Assembly: GCA_016647705.1 (NCBI GenBank)
Contig: CM028338.1
Coordinates: 12,244,240-12,308,239 of the forward strand
Direction of reading: 5' to 3'
Source: Eucommia ulmoides
Lineage: Eukaryota > Streptophyta > Magnoliopsida > Garryales > Eucommiaceae
DNA: 64,000 nucleotides
Shown here: in pieces, positions 19,501 to 60,377 of the stretch
Layout: the number at the start of each line of letters is the position of its first letter
How positions within the stretch are numbered: position 1 is the first letter of the stretch
Notes under the pieces: generated by a model
Told to the model about the DNA's origin: nothing
Databases searched by the model: none
What the model saw: only the letters and a program-made list of their open reading frames with translations
Made by a program: the position numbers and the translations under genes

Positions 19501-22440
19501 TTTATTTATTAAGTACTTTTTTGCTTAAAAGCCATGAAGTACTTCACAAACCTCTTATCAAATGGTTACTTTAATTATTTGAATATGAAATGGGATGTAA
19601 AGATTTGAAGAATACTGCTGAGGATGTCCTAGTTAAAGACTTGGTGTAAAGTTCATTAATCATAGTTGATGATTTCCTAGTTAGCCGTCAAGTCGGGTAG
19701 GTGGCTATAATAGTATAGGCAGATAAAGCAAGCATTTCCGGTTCTTGAATGAATATGTCTAGTAGGCAAGCTACCTCGAAAGTAAGAAAGTCAAAAGCAT
19801 CAAACTTGCTTTGTAGAAGTAGTAGTGCAAGAAGCATTAGGGTTTGCACTTAAGAGTATATATGCGGGAAATCTTAAAGGCAAGCAGCTTTCAACTTCTT
19901 GTGCGGTATTTTTTTCCCCCTGAAAAACTGATTTGATCAACTAGAATAACTTATTGGTATCTGAATGGACTAACTGTAGTCTCTCTTTTTTTAACTTGTA
20001 CAATCCATTTGATTCAATTAATTAACATGATGATGCTGAATCTCTGTTATTGTCCAGGAGCTGAATACCAAGCAAGTGACCTGGGTTTGCTAGTGGAAAA
20101 TACTTCAGTTGAGCAGCTTGGTTTTGCTAGAAAGGTTACCATCAGCAAGGACTCCACAACAGTTATTGCAGATGCGGCATCTAAAGATGAGATTCAGGCT
20201 AGGATTTCCCAGATCAAGAAGGAATTGGCCGAGACTGATTCTGTGTATGACTCTGAGAAACTTGCCGAGAGAATAGCCAAATTATCAGGTGGAGTTGCTG
20301 TGATAAAGGTTGGGGCTGCAACAGAGACAGAGCTGGAGGACAAGAAGCTTCGGATTGAGGATGCCAAGAATGCAACATTTGCAGCCATAGAGGAAGGAAT
20401 TGTTCCTGGCGGCGGTGCTGCATTGGTTCATCTTTCATCTCATGTCCCTGCCATTAAAGAAAAGTTTGAAGATGCAGATGAGCGATTGGGTGCAGACATC
20501 GTGCAAAAGGTAATAGTTGAAATTTTCGTAATGTGGAAATTGTCGTTCTTGCGAATATTTTCTCTCGTTCATGATATTATTGTGGGTCATAGACCCATAT
20601 ATGTGTATTGTAGGAGGTGATTTCGTCATTTTTGGCTTCTTTAGTTGCAATTTTACACGTACACGTTATAATTTGGGCTAACTGAATTGGTAAGGGCTTG
20701 GAAACCTGTTTTCTGTTTTTGAAAATACAGCAACTACAACTATTTTTAACACAACTTGAAAATAAATTTGCGAGACAATTTTCATGGTAGTCATTATATT
20801 ACATCACCTAATTTTAATATCATTTTTATTATTTTATAAATTGACTTCTTGACTCTTCCTTTTTCAAATTTCTATACAAATTATCTCTTCCACACATTAT
20901 AACCATTTAAAAAAAATAAAATAAAAAATCATATTTCTAGCAATCATGGTACTTTTACTTTTAAAAAATTTGATACATTATTAATAAATATTTGTTTGTT
21001 TATAACTTTTTTAGAACTAATTCGAACATCTAATTTACAATTTTCAAAATTTGTCTAAAATTTTTTTGAATGTTGTTTTCAATAAACGTAACCAAACAAG
21101 CCTCTGACTCGTTAGGTTACACAGAATGAAATGAGGGTAGAATGGAATGGAATAAGTAATAGAATGAAAGAAGAAATATAATGAAATTGTCAATAGAATC
21201 ACTATACCATTATCTTGTTTGGTTAGTATGGAATGAGGGAAAGAATAGAATAATGAAATATTGTAAAATTCCTATTATGCCATTATGTAATTATTATTTC
21301 ATTCTCTTGTTTGGTTGGTATGAAGTGAATGAAGGAATGCAATGAAATATAATAAAATTCTCATTATGTCCTTATTACAAAATTTTATTATATTTCACTA
21401 TTCCATTCAATCCCTCATTTTGTTATATTTTACTATTCAATTTAATTTTCAATTTCTGTTCTCAATTTTCAGTTTCTATTTATCTAATTTCTGTTTCTGT
21501 TCTCAATTTTTAGTTTTTTCTCTAATTTCTGTTTTTGTTCACAATTTTCAGTTTCCGTTCTCAATTTACCGTTATCTAATTTTCTGTTTTTGTTATAAAT
21601 TTTCAGTTTATGTTCGCAATTTTTTGTTTCTGTTCTCAATTTTCTGTTTCTGTTTTTAATTTTTAGTTTTTGTTCTTAATTTTCAGTTTTCATTCTCTAA
21701 ATTTCTTTTTTTTTTTTTCTTAATTTTTAGGTTATGTTATCAATTTTCTGTTTTTGTTCTTAATTTTAATTTTTTGTTCTCAATTTTCAGTTTTCGTTTT
21801 CAATTTTATGTTCTCTAATTTTATGTTTTTATTCTCAATTTTCAAATTATGTTCTTAATTTTCTATTTCTGTTCTCAATTTTCTGTTCTCTAATTTTTGT
21901 TTTTGTTTTTGTTTTTGTTCTCAATTTTCAAGAGTTTAAATATAAGAGTTATTATGTAATTTAGGATGTCGATTCCATTAGATTGGAATTCCATTCCATC
22001 TCATTCCGCTCTATTTCATTCTAATGAAATCACAAAAGTGATTCTGTTGGATAACCAAACAACGGAATAAGAATCAAGAGCGGAATGAAATCTATTCCGT
22101 CCAACCGAACTTGTCGAGTTTCAAATGCTGATTCGTTCTTTGGTGGTTGCAGGCACTGGTGGCGCCGGCAGCATTGATAGCCCAAAATGCAGGAATCGAG
22201 GGGGAAGTGGTGGTGGAGAAGGTGGCTGCAAGGGAATGGGAGGTTGGTTACAACGCAATGACAGACAAATACGAAGACTTGGTGGCGGCTGGCGTTATAG
22301 ACCCAGCCAAGGTTACGAGATGTGCCTTGCAGAATGCAGCTTCTGTTGCTGGAATGGTCCTCACCACACAGGCCATTGTCGTGGAGAAGCCTAAGCCCAA
22401 GACGCCTGCCCCTACTGCTCCTCAAGGTCTTGCTGTGTGA
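16547..22440 (+). CDS. CPN60A: Chloroplast chaperonin 60 subunit alpha (Rubisco large subunit-binding protein alpha)
   Basis: Eight coding exons: 16547-16600, 16727-16913, 17942-18063, 18205-18412, 18509-18654, 18786-19092, 20058-20509 and 22153-22440. All introns are GT-AG and the frame is continuous, giving 587 residues, about the length of Arabidopsis CPN60A. Residues 1 to about 47 (start MASANAIS, basic and Ser-rich) form the stromal transit peptide. The chaperonin fold follows, with TLGPRG (76-81) and DGTTT (132-136) in the ATP site, the catalytic Asp at 443 in RIEDAKNAT, and the Cpn60 signature ending GGG at 459-461. The C-terminus [23 protein letters not shown] and ADIVQKAL match the alpha rather than the beta subunit. 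It acts in the stroma in mixed alpha/beta rings with Cpn20/Cpn10, folding Rubisco large subunit among others. The start is the ATG at 16547, in context GGAAAATGG. Nothing in the coding sequence looks broken. Confidence 0.97.
16914..17941 (+). other. CPN60A intron 2 (1.03 kb)
   Basis: Bounded by GTAAAATC and CCACAG. It carries a T-rich tract near 16990-17010 and purine-rich, MITE-like sequence (17150-17580). Open frames inside it have no recognisable product and are treated as intronic noise. Confidence 0.85.
19093..20057 (+). other. CPN60A intron 6 (965 bp)
   Basis: Bounded by GTACATGT and TGTCCAG. No known element is recognised. Bases 19680-19910 are less AT-rich than the surroundings and may be an old insert of unknown source. 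Confidence 0.85.
20510..22152 (+). other. CPN60A intron 7 (1.64 kb) with MITE-like insert
   Basis: The longest intron, bounded by GTAATAGT and GTTGCAG. Its second half (about 21100-22110) is bordered by ACCAAACAAG and ATAACCAAACAACGG and is rich in GGAATGGAATG-type sequence, like common plant MITEs. Inside are two diverged copies of a CTTGTTTGGTTRGTATG block (21214 and 21304) and a long T-rich tandem array (21430-21935). The insert does not disturb the flanking splice sites. Confidence 0.75.
21430..21935 (+). repeat. Tandem array of about 21-bp units in intron 7
   Basis: Degenerate units close to TTTGTTCTCAATTTTCAG are repeated roughly 20 times or more. The sense strand is pyrimidine-rich and several units end in TTTTCAG (near 21465, 21545, 21600, 21685 and 21787), which resembles a 3' splice site. 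Confidence 0.75.
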
Positions 22441-30958: not shown

Positions 30959-33900
30959 TTCGGCAAACCTGATATACTTACATAGTCCTCAAAATGTGTC
31001 ACGAAAATATACTAGGTAAAATATGTTTGAAAAATATATTATGCCCCGTTTTATTATATAGATATATTATCAAGATTCAATTTTAAAAATATTCTATCTA
31101 TTCTAAGCAAACATTATTATGCCTAGCCATTTCTAAGCCCCGAATGAATTTTGAAAATTGTTCTTCTACCAAAGTTTTTATGAATATTTCGGCCAATTGA
31201 TATTGTGTGTCAACATATTCAAGATGAATATAGCACTTTTTCTTAGTACGTGAGTGTTCTGTAGGAGTTTTACTGAAACATATAGCATTTGTGTTATCAC
31301 AACAAATCTGAACTCCTTTCATGCAGACACCAAAATTATGAAACTGTTGGTTTATATATTGAACATATGTGTAACACTATCAGCTTCCATATACTCAGCT
31401 TCAGTAGTGGATAAGGCTATCATGTTTTGTTTCTTACTTGACCAAGAAAGGAGTGCATGACCTAGAAAATGACATGACCCACTAGTGCTTTCATGCTCAA
31501 CTTTGCAATTGACAAAATCAAGGTCAAATTAACTACAGTAAAATTACTCCTCCTAGGATACCATAATCCTAGATCACATGTTCCTTTTAAATATTTTAAA
31601 ATTTATTTAACAACAGTAAAATATGAATCTTTTGGACAAAATTGAAATCTTGTACACAAACAAACACTAAACATGATATCAGGTCTAATAGTTGTAAGAT
31701 ATAAGAGACCACCAATTATACTTTGGTATGTCTTTTCATTCACACTCTTACCTTTGTCATCTTTATCAAGTTTAGTTGTCATCACCATGGGAGTTTTGTA
31801 TTCTTTATCATTTTGCAAACCATACTTTTTAAGTAACTCTTTAACATATGATTGGTTGAAAACATCGATCCCTTCTTTAGTTTGCTTAATTTGAAGCCCA
31901 AAGAAAAATGTTAACTCTTCCATCATGATCATTTCAAACTCAACCGACATTATCTTGCAAACTCTTGGCAAAGATCTTCATTGGTGGATCAACAAATAAT
32001 ATCATCCACATAAATTTAGACTAATAGGATATTTGTAGCAATTTTTTTTTTTAATAAAAAGAGTAATGTCACTAAGTCCATGTTGAAAATATTTCTCAAT
32101 TAAATATTTGTTTAGTCTCTCATACCAGGCTCTAGGAGCATGTTTGAGACCATACAACACTTTACGTAATTCAAAAATATTATCTGGAAGTTTATCATTT
32201 TCAAACCCTAGTTTTTGTTTAATGTAAACATATAAATTTTTTAAGAAAAACACTTTTGACATCCATTTGAAACAATTCAAATTCACAAAATAAGTAAAGG
32301 CCAATAACATTCTTATAGCTTATAATCTAGCAATAAGTGCATAGGTTTCATCATAGCCAAAAATTGCCCTCTTACGAATTATAGCCTTGTACTACTAATC
32401 TTTCTTTGTTTCTAATTACTATTCCCATTTCATCCTTTTTATTGTGATATACGTATTTAGTCCTAATAATAGATTGAAATTCGCGATTCATTGTTTAAAG
32501 CTTCATCAATATTTTTAAGATCAATTTGAGAAACAAATGCAAGATTAATAACATCTCTAAGAGAAGACCTAGTACTTAAACCCTTTTCGAAGCTGCTAAT
32601 AATTTCTTTTACTAAATGACTTGGAATAGTCTTTATAGCTTGCGGACTAGTCAATTCCTCATCTGCTAGTATTTTTTTAGGAGTATCGTATGACTCTTTT
32701 CTAGATTCAATTCCTCGATCCTTCCATTTTGTTATTATACCTGTACCATAATCTAAATCCTTTCTCGACACAAATTGATTAGCCTCTTCAAAGACAACAT
32801 GTACAGATTTTTCTACAACTAAATATCTTTTATCATATAATCTATATACTTTACTATCTGAAGCATATCCAAAAAAAATACCTTGATTAGATTTGGAATC
32901 AACCTTCTCCAAATTATCTTTATCATTTAAAATAAAACATTTACAAACAAAAATTTTGAAATATGATATATTTGGAGTTTCTTCATTCTAAATCTCATAA
33001 GGAGTTTTGTTAAAATCTTTTTGAATAGAAACACAATTTTTGACATAACATGCAGTACTTATCGCTTTGTCCCAAAAATATTTAGGAAGATTGTTTTCAT
33101 TAAGTATAGTCTTGGTCATCTCCCGAAGTGTCCTGATCTTTCTTTCAACAACTACATTTTGTTGGATTACTAGGAGAAGAACAATTATTAGAGTATCCAT
33201 GTTTATCTCAATAACTAAAAATCTAATAATTTTGTAACTCTCTACCACTATCACTATAGATGCTAATGATGCAAGACATTTTTTTTATTCTGAGCACGTT
33301 TGCAAAACTTTGTGAATGCAGATGCCACATCACTTTTCTAAATTATGAAAGCACCCATGTATATTTGAAAAAGAATCTACTATGACAAACACATAATACT
33401 TTCCTCTCAAACTAGTAATAGAATTAAGACCAAACAAATCTAAATCTTGCAATTCAAGAGGCCTACATGTTGATGTATGTAGTTTCTTCTTAAAAGAAGA
33501 CCTAGATTGCTTACCTAGTTGACATGCGACACAAATATCATCCTTAACAAATTTAATATCAAGAAGACCACGAACAAGATTTTTCTGAGATAAACAAGAA
33601 ATTAATTCCATGTTTGCATGCCCAAGACATCTATACCACAACCAACTATTTTTTGATAAAAGCATTTGAGCAAGATAAATTTTGAGATGTAAAATCATTA
33701 AATAAACAAGTATGAACATTTTGAAAATATGATGAAACAAGTAAGATACTACCATTATTACCTTTCTTAATAATGCATTTACTATTATGAAGGATGATAT
33801 TATAACCTCTAGCACATAGTTGACTTATGCTAAACAAATTACCTATGAGACCCTCAACTAATAAAACATCTTCAAGAATATTAGATAAATAATCAATATT

Positions 33901-41073: not shown

Positions 41074-42036
41074 GTAGTGCTTATTGATTTTTAGTTCACA
41101 AGTCTGAGGTTGAAGATGTACGTGAGAATACAATAGTGGAATCCATAAATTCATTCTTTTGTAAGGATATATTTCCTTGTAAAACTCTTCAAGAGTCATG
41201 TTTTTCAAAAAGAACATTTGATACTACAATTAGTGGAGTCCAAAATAAAATATCTTTGGAAGCTAATGAACCTAGACGTAGCAAGACGGCTAAGACGACA
41301 AAGTCATTTGGTCGTGACTTTGTTACCTATACGATAAAAAAATGATCTCAAGAGTTTAAATGAGGCAATATTAACTCTTGAAGCACTGGTAGCGAATTTG
41401 TTTCATCGCTATAATATCGCAAGTATATAAATCAAGTATTAATAGTATAGGAAGAGTAGGGTTGTCGTATCCCCAAGGATTTGTTTAGGTCGTCATTAAC
41501 TACTACAATTGTCGTAATCTAACTTTATTTAGGCGTCCAAATTTTTGGGTTTTTAAATTAACAAATCTAAAGGACCTAAAATAAATATAAATACAAAAAT
41601 AAAATAAAATAAAATATGGATTATCTATGCACAAATGTTCTAGGAGTTTGATTTCATCTCGTTATTCTAATGTTATCTTATTAAGTAATTATTAGTTAAT
41701 TTCGTTGATTCACTAATCAAGGTCCTCATGTTGTTGCTCTCTCACTACCTTTCTCGAATGTCAAGTGAAAGAATATGTAATCACTTCAATACCTATATCC
41801 CTATCTCATACTTAGTTGAAAACATTTATTATATCCGACCTTATAGATTACGCAAGCTTTAAATATCTCCTGATCTATTAAAACTTGCATTGTATTTACC
41901 CTAAGTTTGAACCTGAGATTACTTCTCCCGAATGTCAAATCCCAAGTTCTCAAGTCATCTAAAATATCATGTGGAAGCATAAATTGGAAGCATTATAAAG
42001 ATAAACACAATTGAATAGAGATTCTAATTGATGAAT

Positions 42037-45000
42037 TGGTGGCAGCAAATAATGTGCTGCCACTTTCACCGCAAGCGTACAGATCAAGTTTTAGTATAGT
42101 GGACCTTTCGGTCGGGTATCGTATCCACAGGGATTGGTTTTATTACTATCGAGTATCGCGATTGTCATAACCTGAATTTATCTAGGCGATAAAAATGGAA
42201 TTTAATTTAATACTAATACTAAACTAAATTACTAATTAAGTTAACTATACTATAAATACAAATTTAAGATTGTTTAGGGGAGTAGATTGCCTAGGGATTA
42301 ACTTTATTTATTTAAATACGTTTGATTTCATTTTAGTTAACATTAACGGCGTTCGGCGTATCCGACAATCTTGGTTTGTAAACTCCCTCGCCACCTCTTC
42401 CGAGTGTAAGACGGAGGAATACGTGACTTTGTGTCAATGCCGAAGTCCCCCTCAACGTCTTAATGACTCTAGGGCACGTGAGTCTCGCCCCAACGTCATC
42501 AATTGCACACTTTCTAACACCCTCCCGGGATGTTAGATTGTCGTGTTGTGTTAACCCTTGTCCGAATCTGGGGTTACCTCTCCCGAGTATCAAACCCCGT
42601 GTTCTCAATATATCTAAACTAGCATATAAACATAGAAAACACGGAAACACAATCAACATACGAAGAACAACCAAGAACGAAACACAAATTCAACCAAAAC
42701 AACATTTTCATAAATAATACATTAATTCCTATTACAATCCATGTTTAACTCATGGCCCTAACCATTTATACAATGTAGAATGAGATAAACATGCTCAATA
42801 ATTACCAAAATAAAGAAAACAAAGAGAGGAAACAAAAGACTTAGCTGATATCCGAAGATTTGCCGCTAGAAACGTCGATTGATCGCTTTCTCGTTGATCC
42901 TCCACGTCGGGTTGAGAGCTCTCCATCCAAAATCCCTAATTATACCCTTAGATATAGCCTAAGGGGCTCAAAAATGCAAGAGAGCAAGAGAGAGACTGGA
43001 GAAGGGGGAGGAGAGAGGGTATTTATAGCCAAAATATCCTAAAAATATCTAAAAATATCTCAAGACTGTGTAGGGGAAATCCGCCTTGGCGAAGAAAACT
43101 TTGCCTAGGAGAAATTAGGTCGGTTAGGATGATCGCCTAGGCGGTGAAGTAGGCAGTGGATTGGGAGAACATTTTGTTGGATTTTCGCCTAGGTGAAGAA
43201 AACTTCGCCTAGGCGAGTGGTTGTCAGTAGCCCATCTTCGTTTTCTATTGGATTTCCGCCTAGGTGAAGGAATCTTCGCCTAGGCGGTCGTTCGTCAGTA
43301 ACATTTTGCTCTTTTCTCAACTTCTTCATTGCCTAGGTGATGGTCTGGACACCTAGGCGGTGGGCCTGTTTCATCTTTTAGCCTCCGAGCTTGTTTATCC
43401 ACCGTAACTTCGAACCGCTTTGGTTCGATCTCATTGTTTTCGCTCCAGTTTCTTATCTTTTTGCCCCACACACCTGATTTATACAAAAAAGAATAAAAAC
43501 ATATTAAAACATATAAAAATAACTATAAACGTACTTGAAAATTAACAATTTCTGATTGAAAATACGTAGGTAATTTATACCTATCAAATACCTCTAAACT
43601 CAGAATTTTGCCAATTCTCGAACAAAACACCCACACAATATGAAAAAGTCTACAAACTAATTACGAAATTAAAAACTATAAACGAAAAACATTAAAAAAA
43701 AATGTGTAAGTTTTGATTATCATCTACCGGCCGAAAGATTTTTCCCTCATCGGCCCCCAATCCTATCAAGTTCATAAATCACACCATGTGATGTTCTAGA
43801 ATTTTAACATTCAAAAATAGTAAGCGCCATTCTAGATCCTGTTTAAGTGTGTGTGTGATTAATCTCAAATATACTACTATCCGTTGATTAGATGAGATTA
43901 TCCCTAAATAAAGATCATGACTAAAACCTTTAAGGTATAGGGAATCCATACGCCTGACCTAGGATCTATTCTCCACTAATGTAGGCTCGGAGGTTCATGA
44001 ATATCAGTAGGGCTTGGTTTGGTTTTGGGAAAATGGCCAAGGGTATTTTGGAATTGAAAACAGATTAACGTCATTAACTTAACGTTACCCGAGGCACATT
44101 GCTTGGCACACTCACTCTCGAAACCTCATAGTTATAATTGAAACAACCCCGAAAATACGTTTAAGAACGTCATACTCACTTGTCATGTCAAAAAGTTTTT
44201 TTTTTTTTTTTTTAAAACACACCCCCAATCTCATTCGAATTTCTATAATTTTAAGAGTGTGCAAAAATTGTTAAAGTAACACACCCCAAAACGTATTCGA
44301 ATTCTTATAACCTTAGGAATGTTCAAACAATATGAACGACAAACAACAAATGAGTACTCAAATACCGAACCAAATTAGAATTTCGGCCTAAACCCAACCA
44401 CTCACATCAAGTAGCGAAATGCTAACTTGATTTACTCAAATTGTGCCTTCAGTTTAGCGATATAGGTTTGAAAAAAGTTCAATCGGCTAGGGTATTTGTT
44501 AAGTGTTCAGAATTGAAACGGTTATTAGGTTTCGACAGGGTAACGAGGGGTAATGATTTATCAGGCTAAGCTTAAAAGGCTCAAGTGATTAAATGATTGC
44601 CTAAATCATATCTCCTAAATAACCTCGCCTAGGATTTTACCTCGAATTTCTCCCAAATCAGGTTCTAGAATCCCTATTGTCATGAAATTGATTGACGGAT
44701 AATCAGTTTCAAATCAATAAGATAGTGCTATATTGAGTTTACGTGCTCGTGCATTTAGGGTCTACAATAAATTTTACTAAACGATACGTTAAGCACACAG
44801 AACACACATGAATGAGCGTTACGCTCGACCTCAAAACAATCAGGGGACAGAGTTATCATCGGGTAAAGGCCTAGATGACGTCAAAACGTAGCACAAAACA
44901 ACATCTAAACTAACAAACTAATCCTAAACAAGCATGCAAATGATAAAACAGTAAAATTTAACTAAAAATATAAACATATACTAAAACATACTACACATCA

Positions 45001-47211
45001 CCACCAACTCTACACAGGTGATGTCCAAAACGAGCCGTCAGCAATCCCAATGACAGTTTATAGCATGATATTGAAGACGGGGGTTTAGAATACATACCTG
45101 GGAGGCAAGAAGATCTCGCCTCTGACTCAAATTGACGGAGACGTATCTAACTTATTTGTGACCCTGGGTTGCCTCCCAAGAAGCGCTTGGTTTAATGTCC
45201 TCAGCCCGACAAATGCCCTCAAGACTGGCGAGATTTTTCAATGAACGAACACAAGAGTACCTGTTGATCTAATATCTTCAAGCATCCTGTAGGAAAACAA
45301 AAACAAAAACAGAACTACAAACGAAAATTCTTCTTTCTTCCTCTCTTTCTCATGACGACTAGGAACAGGCAAATCACAAATTTTACTTCGAATTTCGGAC
45401 CTCAACATCCTGCTGCTCATGGTGTTTCACGATCAGTATTGGAAATGAACGGAGAAGTGGTGGAACGTGCGGAACCACATATTGGATCACTCCAGTGTGG
45501 CACGAAGTCGCTGATGCCGAGTCGGCTCCTATGCCCTGCTTGGTCCCCCGGCACGGTAGAGGTTCCGTAGCGCGTCATGAGCATCGGGCTAAGGGGCGGT
45601 TGAGCCTAGATTAAAATCAAGTTATTTATTCCCAATATTGATAGAAATCAACAAGACAATCCCCTGTAACAGCGCCAAAAAACTTGGTAGCCGCAAATAA
45701 TGCACTGCCACTTTCACCGCAAGCATACGGTTTAAGTTTTAGTATAGTGGACCTTTCGATCGGGTATCGTATCCACAGGGATTGGTTTTGTTACTATCGA
45801 ATATCGCGATTGTCATAACCTGACTTTATCTAGGCAATACAAATGGAATTTAATTTAATACTAATACTAAAATAAAATACTAATTAAGTTAACTATACTA
45901 TAAATACTAATTTAAGATTGTTTAGGTGAGTAGATTTCCTAGGGATTAACTTTATTTACTTAAATGCGTTTGATTTCGTTTTAGTTAACATTAACGGCGT
46001 TTGATGTATCCGACAATCTCGGTTCGTAAACTCGTTTGCCACTTCTTTCGAGTGTAAGATGGGGGAATACGTGACTTCGTGTCAACGCCAAAGTCCCCCT
46101 CAACGTCTTAACGACTCTAGGTCACATGAGTCTCGCCCCAACGTCATCAATTGCACACTTTCTAACGCCCTCCCAGGTCGTTAGATTGTCGTGTTGTGTT
46201 AACCTTTGTCCGAATCCGGGGTTACCTCTCCCGAGTGTTAAACACCATATTCTCAATATATCTAAACTAGCATATAAATATAGAAAACACAGCAACACAA
46301 TCAACATAAGAAGAACAACCAAGAACGAAACATAAATTCAACAAAAACTGCATTTTCATAAATAATACGTTAATTCTTATTACAATCCATGTTTAACTCA
46401 TGGCCATAACCGTTTATACAATGTAGAATGAACTAAACATTCTCAACAATTACCAAAATGAAGAAAACAAAGAGAGGAAACAAGAGACTTAGCCGGTATC
46501 CGAAGATTTGCTGCTAGAAATGTCGATTGATCGTTTTCTCGTTGATCCTCCACCTCGGGTTGAGAGCTCTCCCTCCAAAATCCCTAATTATACCCTTAGA
46601 TATAGCCTAAGAGGCTAAAAAATGCAAGCGAGAAAGAGAGAGACTGGAGAAAGGGGGAGAGTGGGTATTTATAGCCAAAATATCCTAAAAATATCTAAAA
46701 ATATCTCAAGACTATGCAGGGAAAATCCGCCTAGGCGAAGAAAACTTTGTCTAGGCGAAATTAGGTCGGTTTGGCTAATCGCCTAGGCAGTGAAGTAGGC
46801 GGTGGACTGGGAGAACATTTTGTTGGATTTTCGCCTAGGCGAAGAAAACTTCTCCTAGGTGAGTGGCTGTTAGTAGCCCATTTTCGTTTTCTGCTGGATT
46901 TTTGCCTAGGCGAAGGAATCTTTGCCTAGGCGGTCGTCCATTTGTAACATTTTGCTCTTTTCTCAGCTTCTTCACTACCTAGGCGGTGGGCCTATTTCAT
47001 TTTTTAGCCTCCGAGCTTGTTTATCCACCGTAACTTCGATCCGCTTTATTTCGATCTCATCGTTTTCGCTCCAGTTTCCTATCTTTTTGCCCCACATGCC
47101 TGATTTATACAAAAAGAATAAAAACATTTTAAAACATATAAAAATAACTATAAACGTACTTGAAAACTAACAAATTCGGATTGGAAGTACGTAGGTAATT
47201 TACACCTATCA
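42037..47211 (-). mobile_element. Athila-like LTR retrotransposon A, nested in B (fossil)
   Basis: The 5' LTR is 47211-45685 (1527 bp). A tRNA-Asp-type primer site lies at 45676-45659, followed by an internal region of about 2.1 kb, a purine-rich tract near 43601-43587, and a 3' LTR at 43586-42037 (1550 bp). The target duplications TGAAT (42032-42036 and 47212-47216) are perfect, so both ends are intact. The first 165 bp of the two LTRs differ at about 14 sites, which suggests an insertion age of several million years. There is no gag or pol; the interior carries a mitochondrial nad7 fragment. TATA boxes lie near 46676-46669 and 43030-43023. It is closely related to element A1 at 1-3893. Confidence 0.9.
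45330..45605 (+). pseudogene. nad7: Mitochondrial nad7 exon 1 and intron start, nuclear copy (NUMT) inside element A
   Basis: 45353-45510 encodes [18 protein letters not shown] and continues with HPAAHGV and [15 protein letters not shown], the N-terminus of NADH dehydrogenase subunit 7 of plant mitochondrial complex I. Sequence after about 45510 no longer matches the protein and looks like the start of nad7 intron 1 (GC-rich, group II). TCA codons stand where the edited mRNA reads Leu (HGVSRSVLE compared with HGVLRLVLE), so the source was mitochondrial DNA and not edited RNA. The block is absent from the otherwise similar element A1, where the flanks join near 2010. It is only a fragment of a protein of about 394 residues and is not functional. 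Confidence 0.85.
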
Positions 47212-49052
47212 TGAATCTAAAATTTGATTACCTCCCGATCTCACAAAATCCTAAATTCCCAACTCAAATACCTAGGTGTTGATTTTCTCCCGGACTCACA
47301 ACATTCTATGTTATGCACTCCCAAATCCGGCTACGAATTCAACCTTTCATGAGTATAAAATTTGCAATCTAAAATCGTCTAACTCATTAACCACATGAAT
47401 CAAACACATTAGGCCTAAGAGATGTATACAATGAAATTAAATCTAAAAATTAACGAAATAATCTAAACATGGTTAAAACGAAATTAAATCAAGCCCTAGA
47501 TTAAATTATGAGCACAACATAGATAGATCTATAGCTAATTTTCTCAATAAATTCATATATGTTAGCATGTTCAGCACAAAATTACAAATACAAACTTAAA
47601 ATAAAAGATTAGGGAGAGAGAAAAGAAGAGAAAATGCTTATTGTGGGTTTAGGCTCAACATCTTCAATCCCAAGTTCCACCAATGGTGTTTTCTTCTTCA
47701 ATCTCACATCAAAACGCCATCATCTGGTGTTTTCTCGCCCAAAATCGCCGGTTGTCTCTCCCAAAATCGCCTCCTCTTCTTCCTTTTTTGTCCTCTTCTC
47801 CTAAATGAGCCAAAATGGCCTTAAGAAAGGGAAAAAACATAATGTTGGCACTGCAGCGTGCATTTTCGCGTTGTAGTGCCGTTTCTAGCACATTAGGGTT
47901 CATAGGATTTGTGTTGTAATGTCACTTTTTTGGATATGCAATGCCAAATAGCGTTGATTCACACTGCAGCGCGGGTCTTTCCCTCTACAACACAAGGCTT
48001 CCTGAAAAATGGCCATAACTGTCTCATCCAAACTCAGATTGAGGTTATTCAAAACGATTTGGAAAGCTAAGACCGATATCTATAACTTTCATGTTTTGAA
48101 ACTTTCCAAAATTGGATTGAATCTTTGTCGAAATTGGCCTTGAAGTTAAAGTATTTGCACATATTTTTCTCCTTTTCTCCCATTTATTTGTAAACCTACA
48201 AAACAATACAAAAACACATTAAACTAACAAAAATACTTGACATCGCACAAATATTTGAATATAAAAGTACTTGATTTATTGGTAAATAAATCACTAATCA
48301 AATACCCCCAAACTCAAATGTTTATTTGTCCTCAAGAAAAAGAAAATAAAATAAAAGACAAAACATAAATCAATTATTAAAACACTAACAAAATAAAATA
48401 AAATAGGAGTTTCGTATTGAATCAACAACAGTGCAATAATCTCTTCAACCACAAAATACTCCAAACTGAAATAAAATGTACACGTTGAGATAATCTAGAA
48501 TTTCGAATTTAAGTATTAATTTCAACCCACTCAAGATTCTAGAAATGTCATTTGGTGCACAATCACTCTCATCCAACCATCCTAGCCTTGGATATATTTA
48601 TATGCTAATGGGGCAATGAACAATCTCTAGATAAAGAATGCAAGAACAACCATAAGCCCATTTTTTGTGTCACTCTCCACTAATTGTGTAGGTATATATG
48701 TCATTAGAGATCAAAAGGACTTTGAGGGTTGTAATGTATGTCTAGGGTAAAAGGTAGATGGAAATATCATTTTTAGGCTCAAATCACCATAGGCATGTAT
48801 CACAACTCATGGATCATACAAGATTTCCGAGAAACATTCACCGACTCCCTCTTTCTTTACATGTATTCTTTCAATCAATCCCACAAGGTATTATTCATAA
48901 AACAAACTAAAACATTTAATTTTTTTTTATTATTTGTTTTTTTTACAAAATAGGTGAAAACCACACCCCCAAACTCAAACTTAACATTGTCCTCAATGTT
49001 GCACGAAAAATATAAGGTGGAAGACAGGAATACTCACCACTATACTATAACT

Positions 49053-49113: not shown

Positions 49114-52100
49114 TAAACAACTAAAATAAACAAAATAAAAAACACAACCCGGTCCACCAATGACTTTCAAAACACAACCCATTCTATTCCTTACACTCAA
49201 TGATCCATGTTACATGCCAATTCATGATGGGTTTAGGCAGTGGAAATACATTTAGTGAGGTGGATGCAAAAATGTAGGTAGTGAAAGAATTAGACAATAA
49301 GGCTCAACAGGGGTAACGACAAATAAACAATTTTCATGGGTTAGCTTCAAAGGCCCAAATGATCTAAAGAATGCCTAAATCATTTCTCTAATAACACATA
49401 AGCTAGTATTTTGCCTCAAGCTTCACTCAAATGGATTCTAGAATTCATGAGATGTCAAAGCCTACCTAAAAGCACATAAATGTTCTCCGAATACCCAAAA
49501 GGCCAAGTGATCGTGATTCATGGTTCTCAAGTGTAACTAATCGAGATTGAATTTCAATTAACACAAGTCAAGCATAGAGAAATCTCAAGTCAATACATTT
49601 CAAACGACCTAAGAGAACATCAAGTGTTTATACTCATAATCGATATCTGGTCATATCATCTCAACAAAACTCACAATTTATTTAAACTAACCTAAAAAAA
49701 AAAAAAAAAACTAAAAATATGGCCACAAGAACATAAGTTATACACAGAAAAGTCACACACACAAGCATACCCTAACCCAAATCCACATATGTATCACCCC
49801 AAAACTTAAAGTAAAGCATGTATTCAAATTAAGCACAAGGGAATAGAACATGTACCAGGTCCGGGCAAGTTGATTGGTGTGGGGCTTTCTTCTATCGCTT
49901 GCATCCTTAGGCTCAATTATTTTGAAACTTGGGTTGTCTCCCAAGAAGTGTTTGGTTTAATGTCCTCGTATTGACACGGAAAAGGGCTTGTCAAAGAGCG
50001 GTTTCCGCCCATAATATATGTCATATAACACAACGTGTGGGTCTTGGTTCAAAACGCCCTCCAACTTAGCGAGATGTAGCATTAATCGACACATACTCTC
50101 AACTTGATTCCGTTCTATCTCATGTGCTTGGCGGGTGTGAAAGAACGAAGTTAAAGGTCGGGGAGGATGGGAGAGCCACATCGGATGTTCATAGATGTAA
50201 TCGTCATCGATCGGTGGTGGCATCAAAATCTGGATCTCGAACGGTGAAGATTCACAAATGTCATCTTGTGATTCTTCATCGTTGATCCATTCCTCATTCA
50301 AATCATTTCCATTGAACATACCCAAGTTTCTCCCGCTCGTATTTGGTTCCTCATGGTGGCTTTCACATATGGATGTGCCTTGTACGTCTCTCAGTGCCAC
50401 CATTCCTAACTCGGTCTCAATGTAGCTAACTAGTTGACCGATTTGCATCTCAAGCAACTTTATGATCGTGTCAATTTCAGTGCAGGTTCTCTTAATATTG
50501 TCAAGACAAACCTCATGCTCATTAAGACGTTCATGAGTTTCCATCCAAAAAACCTGAGTCTCCTTCATAAATACAGCGAACATCTCTTCCAGGGTGATGG
50601 AAGACTCTACAAGTTGGTCTGGGGTGTCAATTCGTGGTGTTGAAACATTGGAACTATCCCCCAAGTTTTGGTAGCTTGTTTAATAATTCCAACTCTGACA
50701 GTCAAACTCCGCCATGTCTTCCAACAACCAATAGGCTTCGTCCACAGTTAGTTGGAAGAAAGATGTGGTACCATTTTCTCCTTCCACCCAAATTCTTGTT
50801 GCGTTTTATAACCCATCGAAGAAGTTCAGTAATTGATACTTCTTAAGGAAATGATGAATGGAGAATCGAATGAGCAACTCCTTGTATCTATCCCAAGCAC
50901 AATAGAATGGCTCAGAATCTCATTGAGAAAAACACATGAGGACTTGTTAATGAGGCATCTCTAAGTACCTTGCAAAACAAACAAAACTAACAACAAAAAT
51001 AAAAAATAAAACAAATGCCTAAATTAAAATTAAGTTACTTATTCACAATATTAACAAAAATCTAAAATGGCAATCCCCAGAAACGGCGCCAAAAACTTGG
51101 TAGCAAATTTGTTTCATTGGTATAATACTGCAAGTTTACGAGTCAAGTTTTAATAGTATAGGAAAAGTAGGGCTGTCGTATCCACAAGGATTGGTTTAGA
51201 TCATCGTTAAGTACTACAATTGTCGTTACCTAACTTTATATAGGCGTCCAAATTTTTTGGTTTTTAAATTAATAAATCTAAAATAGCTAAAATAAATATA
51301 AATATGAAAATAAAATAAAATATGGATTATCTATGCACAAATGTTCTAGGGGCTTGATTTCATCTCGTTATTCCCATGTTATCGTATTAAGTAATTATTA
51401 GTTAATTCCATTCATTCAATAATTCCGATTATGAATTCAACCTCTCCTGAGTATAAAATTCACAACCTAAAATCGTCTAACTCATTGGCCACAATAATCA
51501 AACACATTTGGCCCAAGATATGCATAAAATGGAATTAAATTTAACAATTAACAAAATAATCTAAACATGGCTCAAACGAGATTAAATCAAACCCTAGATT
51601 AAATTATGAACACAACATAGATAGATCCATAGTAAATATTCTCAATAAATTCATATATGTAAGCATGTTCAGCACAAAATTACAAATAAAAACTTAAAAT
51701 AAAAGATTAGGGAGAGACAAAGGAAGAAAAAATACTTATTATGTGTTTGAGCTTCAAATCTTCAATCCCAAGTGTCACTAATGGTATTCTCTTCTCCAAT
51801 CTCATAACAAAATGTCACCATCTAGTGTTTTCTCACCCAAAATCGTCGGTTGTCTCTCCCAAAATCGCCTCCTCTTCTTCCTCTATCGTCATTCTCTCTA
51901 AAATGAGCCAAAATGGCCTTAAGGAGGGGGGAAAAAAAAAAACGTTAGCGCTGCAGCGTGCAGTGCGTATTTTTGCACTGTAGCGCCTCTTCTAGCACAT
52001 TAAGGTTCAGAGGATTCATGTTGATTCTAGTCAAATAGCACTAATTCATGCTGCAGTGCGGGTTTTTCTCACTACAGCCTGAGATTTCGAAAAAATAGCC

Positions 52101-53307
52101 ATAACGTTTTCATTCGAACTCCGATTGAGGTGATTCAAAATGATTTAGAAAGACAAGACTGAGATATACAACTTTAATGTTTTGAGGGTTTCCAAAATCT
52201 AATTTCATCATGGTCCACATTGGCCTTGAAATTACAGCATTTGCATATATTTTTCTTATTTTCTCCCATTTATTTGTAAACCTACAAAACAATACAAAAA
52301 CTCATTAAAATAGAAAAAATGCTTGAAAAACACACAAATATTTGAATCTAAAAGTACTTGATTTGTTGGTAAATAAATCACTCATCAAGCACTATTTGGA
52401 AAGAAACTGTAAATAGTGAATTGGAATCCAATTTGCAAAATCATACATAGGAACTAGTGAATCTCCCATCCGATTCTAAATCCCTTTTTTATAAGTGTAT
52501 ATTCAACAAGAAGATTAAAGAATATGGATCAATCGATAAATACAAAACTATACTTGTAGCTAAAGATTGCAAGTAAAGAAAATGTGTTAATTTCTTTGAC
52601 GCGTACTTATCGATTACTTGAATAACATCCATCAGAATGTTAATGGCCATTGCAGCTGTACATAATCTTTAGATATATCATATGGGTGTTAGGATAACTT
52701 CCCTAAATGGTGAACTAGATGAAGAAATCTACATAGAATAACCTGAATGGTTTGTTGCTGCTAGTAGAGAGAATAAAGTTTTTAGACTGGTTAAGTCTTT
52801 ATATGGACTTAAACAAGTACCAAAACAGTGGCATGAGAAATTTGATAAAGTTAAGATGTCAAATAGATTTTAAAATCAATAAATGTTACAAATGTGTCTA
52901 CATCAAATATAATGAATCCTTATATGTCATTGTATACCTTTATGTAGATGACATGCTAATTTTTGGTAGCAACATTGACATCATTAAGTCTACCAAAAAG
53001 ATTCAAATTATTAAGTTCGATATGATAGATTTAGGTGTTTCTAATGTAATTCTAGAAATTAATTTTTTTAGATCAACTGAAGGACTAGTATTGTCACAAT
53101 CTCATTATATTGAGAAGACACTTGAGAAACACAACAACTGTGATAATAGATTAGCTAAAACACTTATTGATAATCATCTGACTAAGAATACTAATGAAAG
53201 AATCTCTCAGTTAGAGTATGTTTGAATAATAGGCAGTCTAATGTAGGTAATGAATTGTAATAGACCATATGTTTCCTACATCGTGAGCAAACTGAGAAAT
53301 ATACTAA

Positions 53308-60245: not shown

Positions 60246-60377
60246 TAGTAGTCGTCTATTGCCGATGCAGCATCATCAAGATTCTCACTACAAAAAAGGC
60301 TCTATTAGAGAGAGAGAGAGAGAGAGCATTTTTTCATGTGAATCTTGATGATGCTACATCCGCAAGCAACGACTGAC
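60246..60377 (-). ncRNA. MIR172: MIR172 precursor hairpin
   Basis: On the - strand the 3' arm carries the canonical miR172a/b mature 21-mer at 60285-60265 (AGAATCTTGATGATGC and onward, ending GCAT). The 5' arm carries the star at 60357-60337 (GTAGCATCATCAAGATTCAC). The bases after the mature sequence, CGGCAA, match known MIR172a precursors. The lower stem (AGTCGTTGC.TTGC with GCAATAGACGACT) pairs nearly fully. The upper stem closes with AAAAAATGCTCT and AGAGCCTTTTTT around a CT-repeat loop. miR172 is loaded into AGO1 and represses AP2-type mRNAs (AP2, TOE, SMZ), promoting phase change, flowering and floral patterning. The - strand is preferred because its 3' arm is the exact canonical sequence. 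The family call is firm; the paralogue number is not. Confidence 0.95.
60265..60285 (-). ncRNA. miR172: Mature miR172
   Basis: A 21-nt sequence identical to the miR172a/b form of Arabidopsis and many angiosperms. It sits on the 3' arm, opposite the star at 60337-60357 with short 3' overhangs, as in typical DCL1 products. Confidence 0.93.

Follow-up and report, generated by a model that had tools for sequence, protein, structure and literature searches.

A small NUMT carrying nad7 exon 1 inside an old LTR retrotransposon of Eucommia ulmoides, most probably laid in by end-joining

When a piece of the mitochondrial gene nad7 lies inside a nuclear LTR retrotransposon, did the element take it up as cargo or was it laid into the element afterwards? 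An initial annotation of a 64,000-nucleotide stretch of Eucommia ulmoides DNA (contig CM028338.1; the whole stretch is referred to here as the window) left both histories standing. We analyzed the host element, the extent and source of the nad7 block, the related copies of the element and the other nad7 fragments in the genome. The host, element A, has the following parts.

42032 to 42036, no strand: left target-site duplication TGAAT, 5 bp, flanking element A
42037 to 47211, minus strand: element A, a non-autonomous LTR retrotransposon, from the LTR pair, the target-site duplication and the list of open reading frames
42037 to 43586, minus strand: 3' LTR of element A (left on the plus strand), from LTR comparison
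45660 to 45677, minus strand: PBS-like sequence adjoining the 5' LTR, reverse complement TGGCGCTGTTACAGGGGA, counterpart in the related element A1 TGGCGCCGTTGCCGGGGA
45685 to 47211, minus strand: 5' LTR of element A (right on the plus strand), from LTR comparison
47212 to 47216, no strand: right target-site duplication TGAAT, 5 bp, flanking element A

Two LTRs, a target-site duplication and a PBS-like site, the marks of an LTR retrotransposon, were thus all found in element A. Because the PBS-like site stands beside the right LTR, the reading direction of the element is that of the minus strand, which leaves nad7 in antisense. The PBS type of A and A1 presumably pairs with tRNA-Asp. The two LTRs were 8.4% different over 1527 aligned sites (K2P 0.090), and no stop-to-stop frame of at least 120 aa was listed within the element. 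In its LTRs, target-site duplication, PBS-like site and want of a long frame, element A is like LARD-like elements (large non-autonomous LTR retrotransposon derivatives), a label that we assume for its family; TRIM elements have far shorter LTRs than the ~1.5 kb found here. Element A is itself nested in an LTR of an outer repeat, of which 41387-41717 and 47323-48301 align to 51098-52388, while ~420 bp of flanking sequence (41718-42031 and 47217-47322) gave no alignment with the second LTR of that repeat. In A1, two PBS-like copies about 125 bp apart were observed at 2065-2230, adjoining its right LTR.

Several features of the window lie apart from this element. At gathering thresholds, an Rfam search of the whole window returned MIR172 alone, a precursor at 60255-60369 scoring 93 bits on the minus strand and 71.7 on the plus strand. 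A Cpn60_TCP1 chaperonin fragment at 20009-20617 (E 1e-14) seems to be a nuclear-gene exon read together with intron sequence. Copia-type fragments occur at 33333-33815 and 52752-53222 (gag_pre-integrs, minus strand; RVT_2, plus strand), and an array of ~20-base repeats rich in TTTCTGTTCTCAATTTTCAG-like units occupies 21414-21941.

The nad7 block sits in the leader of element A, close to the PBS, and was divided as follows.

45330 to 45604, plus strand: NUMT block, antisense to element A, in place of 12 bp of the element
45330 to 45351, plus strand: 22 bp preceding the nad7 start codon, common to the NUMTs L002 and L008
45352 to 45494, plus strand: nad7 exon 1, 143 bp, with unedited codons, from the Nad7 match and the exon end
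45495 to 45604, plus strand: probable start of nad7 intron 1, 110 bp, from its GTGTG start to the right junction

A search of the E. ulmoides genome across the block placed its break points at query positions 50 and 325, corresponding to 45330-45604. The presence of a nad7 exon inside an LTR retrotransposon was confirmed, in a block of 275 bases that is one base shorter than the 45330..45605 of the initial annotation and whose ends are each uncertain by a 2-bp microhomology. The frame at 45352-45495 was similar to residues 1-47 of mitochondrial Nad7, the 49-kDa subunit of complex I, with 6x89_S2 as the best PDB chain (E 3.9e-23); the five top-scoring chains are presumably all from plants. This frame diverged from Nad7 after the 143-bp exon, at GTGTG. 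Exon 1 of angiosperm nad7 is 143 bp long and group II introns begin GUGYG. Two bacterial nuoD alignments (L034 and L043) ended exactly at the exon end, and where the presumed intron of A starts GTGTG, the version in the NUMT L003 reads GTGCG. The exon end, the GTGYG start and the flanking sequence common to other NUMTs together suggest that 45495-45604 is the start of nad7 intron 1. A permissive Rfam search of 45480-45660 gave no match, so the intron is without covariance-model support, and the 48-aa exon product matched no Pfam family at E values up to 1. The same permissive search of the NUMT region of L030 returned no intron model and one weak plant-virus pseudoknot match (E 3.8; 15.8 bits, where the gathering score is 39), which was dismissed as chance. 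The exon-intron junction had 0 matches in viral contigs, and six DNA words from the block had 0 matches in papers.

Two codons in the stretch HGVSRSVLE of the block read TCA (Ser), whereas Leu occupies one or both of these places in the five solved chains shown, indicating that the source was unedited at the TCA sites, as originally noted. The unedited codons, together with sequence that runs past the exon end, support unprocessed mtDNA as the probable source, with unprocessed precursor RNA as a less probable alternative; the genomic mtDNA origin first proposed thus gains support. A mitochondrial origin is further indicated by other nuclear copies that share the block and continue past both of its ends, and a nuclear location by the 61.2-Mb contig and by the position inside a retrotransposon nested in another repeat.

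We searched the genome (946.7 Mb, 391 contigs) with the block and its flanks, scoring 40 of 753 candidates, for which 54 matches were stated. Among the matches listed, the right flank alone (query 325-381) matched at 30 places, at 14 of which the left flank also matched, some 12-15 bp away. Twenty family copies were fetched out of these 30 listed right-flank matches. In all 20 the leader was without nad7, mostly reading cgaaaattatatacaaaaatgCCTAGATTAAAATC, with the flanks of the block contiguous apart from 12 bp in most, and the nad7 piece matched none of them. Relative to these empty copies, which are paralogous and not an empty allele of this locus, element A had lost 12 bp. The outer element was likewise without nad7. 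The earlier reading that the bordering blocks join directly in A1 held in part: A1 is without nad7, but its flanks are about 15 bp apart and it is only 70-75% alike, so that it is a rough comparison only and the closer family copies elsewhere provide cleaner empty sites. When the element sequence cgaaaaTTatatacaaaaatGCCTAG and the NUMT sequence ..TTCTTC / GAGCaac were set against the joins in A, cgaaaaTTCTTC and GAGCCTAG, 2-bp microhomologies were apparent (TT left, GC right), with other NUMTs standing in for the mitogenome on the mtDNA side. Two-base microhomologies, taken singly, are weak evidence; the junctions as a whole fit end-joining.

A genome search with the block alone identified 12 candidate nad7 places, all of which were scored; none of the matches looked like the mitogenome, and only one of the 12 places, the block in element A, lies in this element. 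The other 11 showed 78-95% identity, L002 being nearly full-length, and within roughly 3 kb of each there was no element A, A1 or outer-element sequence (0/11). The genome therefore yielded no second copy of element A with nad7 at the same junctions, and the suggestion that the element had captured nad7 and could copy it onward went unsupported, the block also being antisense. Five of these loci were compared with longer flanks. L002 and L003 had 462 aligned columns in common, reaching ~300 bp past the right join of A, and L005 has most of the stretch that these two share there, while L002 and L008 had common sequence upstream of the left join. These shared flanks in other NUMTs indicate that the block in A is one section of a longer run of mitochondrial sequence. 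Between positions 45534 and 45536, where a repeated CTATGCC adjoins in the presumed intron, A and L002 are missing 12 bases (GCTAGCTATGCC or similar); L003 and L005 carry such a stretch, and L006 carries part of it. This difference may go back to two mitochondrial versions from different times, or to slippage that recurred.

An exact 26-base word from the exon was found in 15 genome_contigs entries, 14 titled Alphaproteobacteria or Pelagibacteraceae and one Flavobacteriaceae MAG; the stretch is identical in 14 contigs (L034-L047), presumably within nuoD. A blastn of the block against the 15 contigs gave matches of 36-115 bp that ended at or before the exon end in all but one, L041, where the match extended 9 bp beyond it, and the presumed intron piece from L030 matched none of the 15. 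Plant mtDNA was rejected as their identity on the strength of this missing intron match and of blastn alignments that stop near the exon end, and the contigs were taken as probable bacterial nuoD relatives.

The relative age of block and element was assessed from substitutions. We counted derived sites in A against seven other NUMTs, the four smallest or later-found (L053-L056) being left out, with the ancestral mitochondrial state inferred from these NUMTs and not from a mitogenome. The block in A had about 4 derived changes over ~273 sites, all C to T, at 45384, 45498, 45508 and 45584; at 45508 and 45584 the others were unanimous against A, and at 45384 and 45498 the majority was. At three further sites the state in A was taken as ancestral although A sided with the minority (45472 and 45536) or shared a three-way tie (45377), so the count could perhaps reach ~7; at many split sites, A was backed by one other copy only. 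For the element, an LTR tree was built from 15 of the 20 fetched copies and both LTRs of A, five copies with broken or partial LTR matches being omitted. The LTRs of A were sisters with an SH-aLRT of 98 (first 816 bp of the 5' LTR and the corresponding piece of the 3' LTR), on branches of 0.040 and 0.053, and in a tree of the internal region (18 of the 20 copies and A) the terminal branch of A was 0.056. From the two LTR branches, 11.0-14.6 changes would be expected in a block as old as the element insertion, and the Poisson probability was 0.015 to 0.0012 for at most 4 changes, 0.08 to 0.01 for at most 6 and 0.23 to 0.05 for at most 8, on rates that may differ between C-rich mtDNA and LTR. 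With moderate strength, these counts argue against an insert at least as old as the element insertion. A direct comparison that needs no reconstructed ancestor also shows little divergence, A and L003 differing at only 3 of 147 aligned sites on their two branches combined, one 12-base gap aside. As ~4 (perhaps up to 7) changes stand against the 11.0-14.6 expected, the nad7 block appears to have arrived after element A had settled, judged from an ancestor reconstructed from NUMTs.

Uptake of nad7 by element A before or during its last transposition, for instance by template switching, would account for a block that adjoins the PBS and is enclosed by an element whose target-site duplication is clean, and organellar DNA has been proposed to co-amplify with nearby retrotransposons (PMC7037861). 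We consider such uptake very unlikely. No second filled copy turned up and all 20 fetched family copies were empty; the substitution count makes the block younger than the element insertion, a point that weakens if the true count is 6-8; and the 12-bp loss with short microhomologies suits end-joining better. The block is antisense, unedited and extends past the exon end, and is not the processed, sense-oriented sequence that mature RNA would give; copying of nad7 RNA in the minus-strand synthesis of the element would leave the opposite orientation. Uptake beside the PBS in the last replication cycle itself, with the low divergence being merely that of a slow-changing stretch, is equally improbable; if true, element A would be a carrier that, by chance, made no further transposition.

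The filler could instead have been donated by a NUMT already elsewhere in the nucleus and not by fresh mtDNA. The 11 other nad7 fragments in the genome speak for such a two-step origin, as does L003, which differs from A at 3 of 147 aligned sites, both branches together and a 12-base gap aside. L003 starts at block position 129 and has 12 bases that A lacks, however, and for these reasons it cannot as it stands have donated the whole block; L002, the sole other copy of near-full span, has many changes absent from A. We regard donation from within the nucleus as very unlikely, although a donor NUMT since lost could still have served. That the assembler joined mtDNA reads into element A is exceedingly improbable: with ~4 changes from the inferred mtDNA, the block probably matches no present-day mitochondrial read, the window contains no N, and a 12-bp loss with 2-bp overlaps would be unlike an assembler overlap.

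The block is therefore best read as a small NUMT, very probably laid into an already old element A by end-joining with mtDNA as filler. This reading is favoured by the single filled copy found, the 12-bp loss, the apparent microhomologies and the fewer block substitutions than the LTRs predict, and it supports the proposal that mtDNA had patched a break inside the element. Element A would have transposed and then aged; a double-strand break would have arisen in its leader, close to the PBS, and been closed, presumably by end-joining, with a stray mtDNA fragment as filler, the immediate source probably being DNA rather than RNA. Filling of double-strand breaks by mtDNA through end-joining is the usual account of NUMTs. 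Published NUMT joins have microhomology of 1-7 bp or are blunt (PMC7037861). Among primate numts, 8 of the 71 for which both sides were analyzed had microhomology at each side, and deletions occurred in 41/90 (PMC2567098), patterns that the element A locus fits.

With known NUMTs the locus shares a short unedited mtDNA fragment, a small target loss, short microhomology at the joins and a single copy at the site; there is no difference of substance, the host sequence happening to be an LTR retrotransposon. In some plants, transposable elements accompany a considerable fraction of the NUMTs (PMC7037861). The papaya NUPT co-amplification proposal (PMC7037861) is alike in that organellar DNA is physically tied to an LTR retrotransposon; in the present case, mtDNA lies inside the element and apparently arrived later than transposition, and the searches of this genome turned up no amplified copy. 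A maize NUMT is described as having received retrotransposon insertions (PMC4632043), and the order is reversed here, the NUMT entering the retrotransposon. PMC6852956 and PMC11792336, in their available portions, deal mainly with transposable elements in mitogenomes. Among the papers listed in literature searches on NUMTs, retrotransposons, capture and repair filler, none was seen to report this locus.

The NUMT at this locus is real, well defined and of an ordinary kind, its host is an old retrotransposon, and the locus is a minor annotation. Organellar DNA near retrotransposons has sometimes been read as spread by the elements (a proposal in PMC7037861). Here, empty paralogous sites, a genome-wide search with the block and the age of the insert relative to that of the element together point to repair filler, and the same three checks can be used for sorting other cases of organellar DNA with retrotransposons. 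The locus thus offers a clean worked example of an ordinary event in plant genomes.
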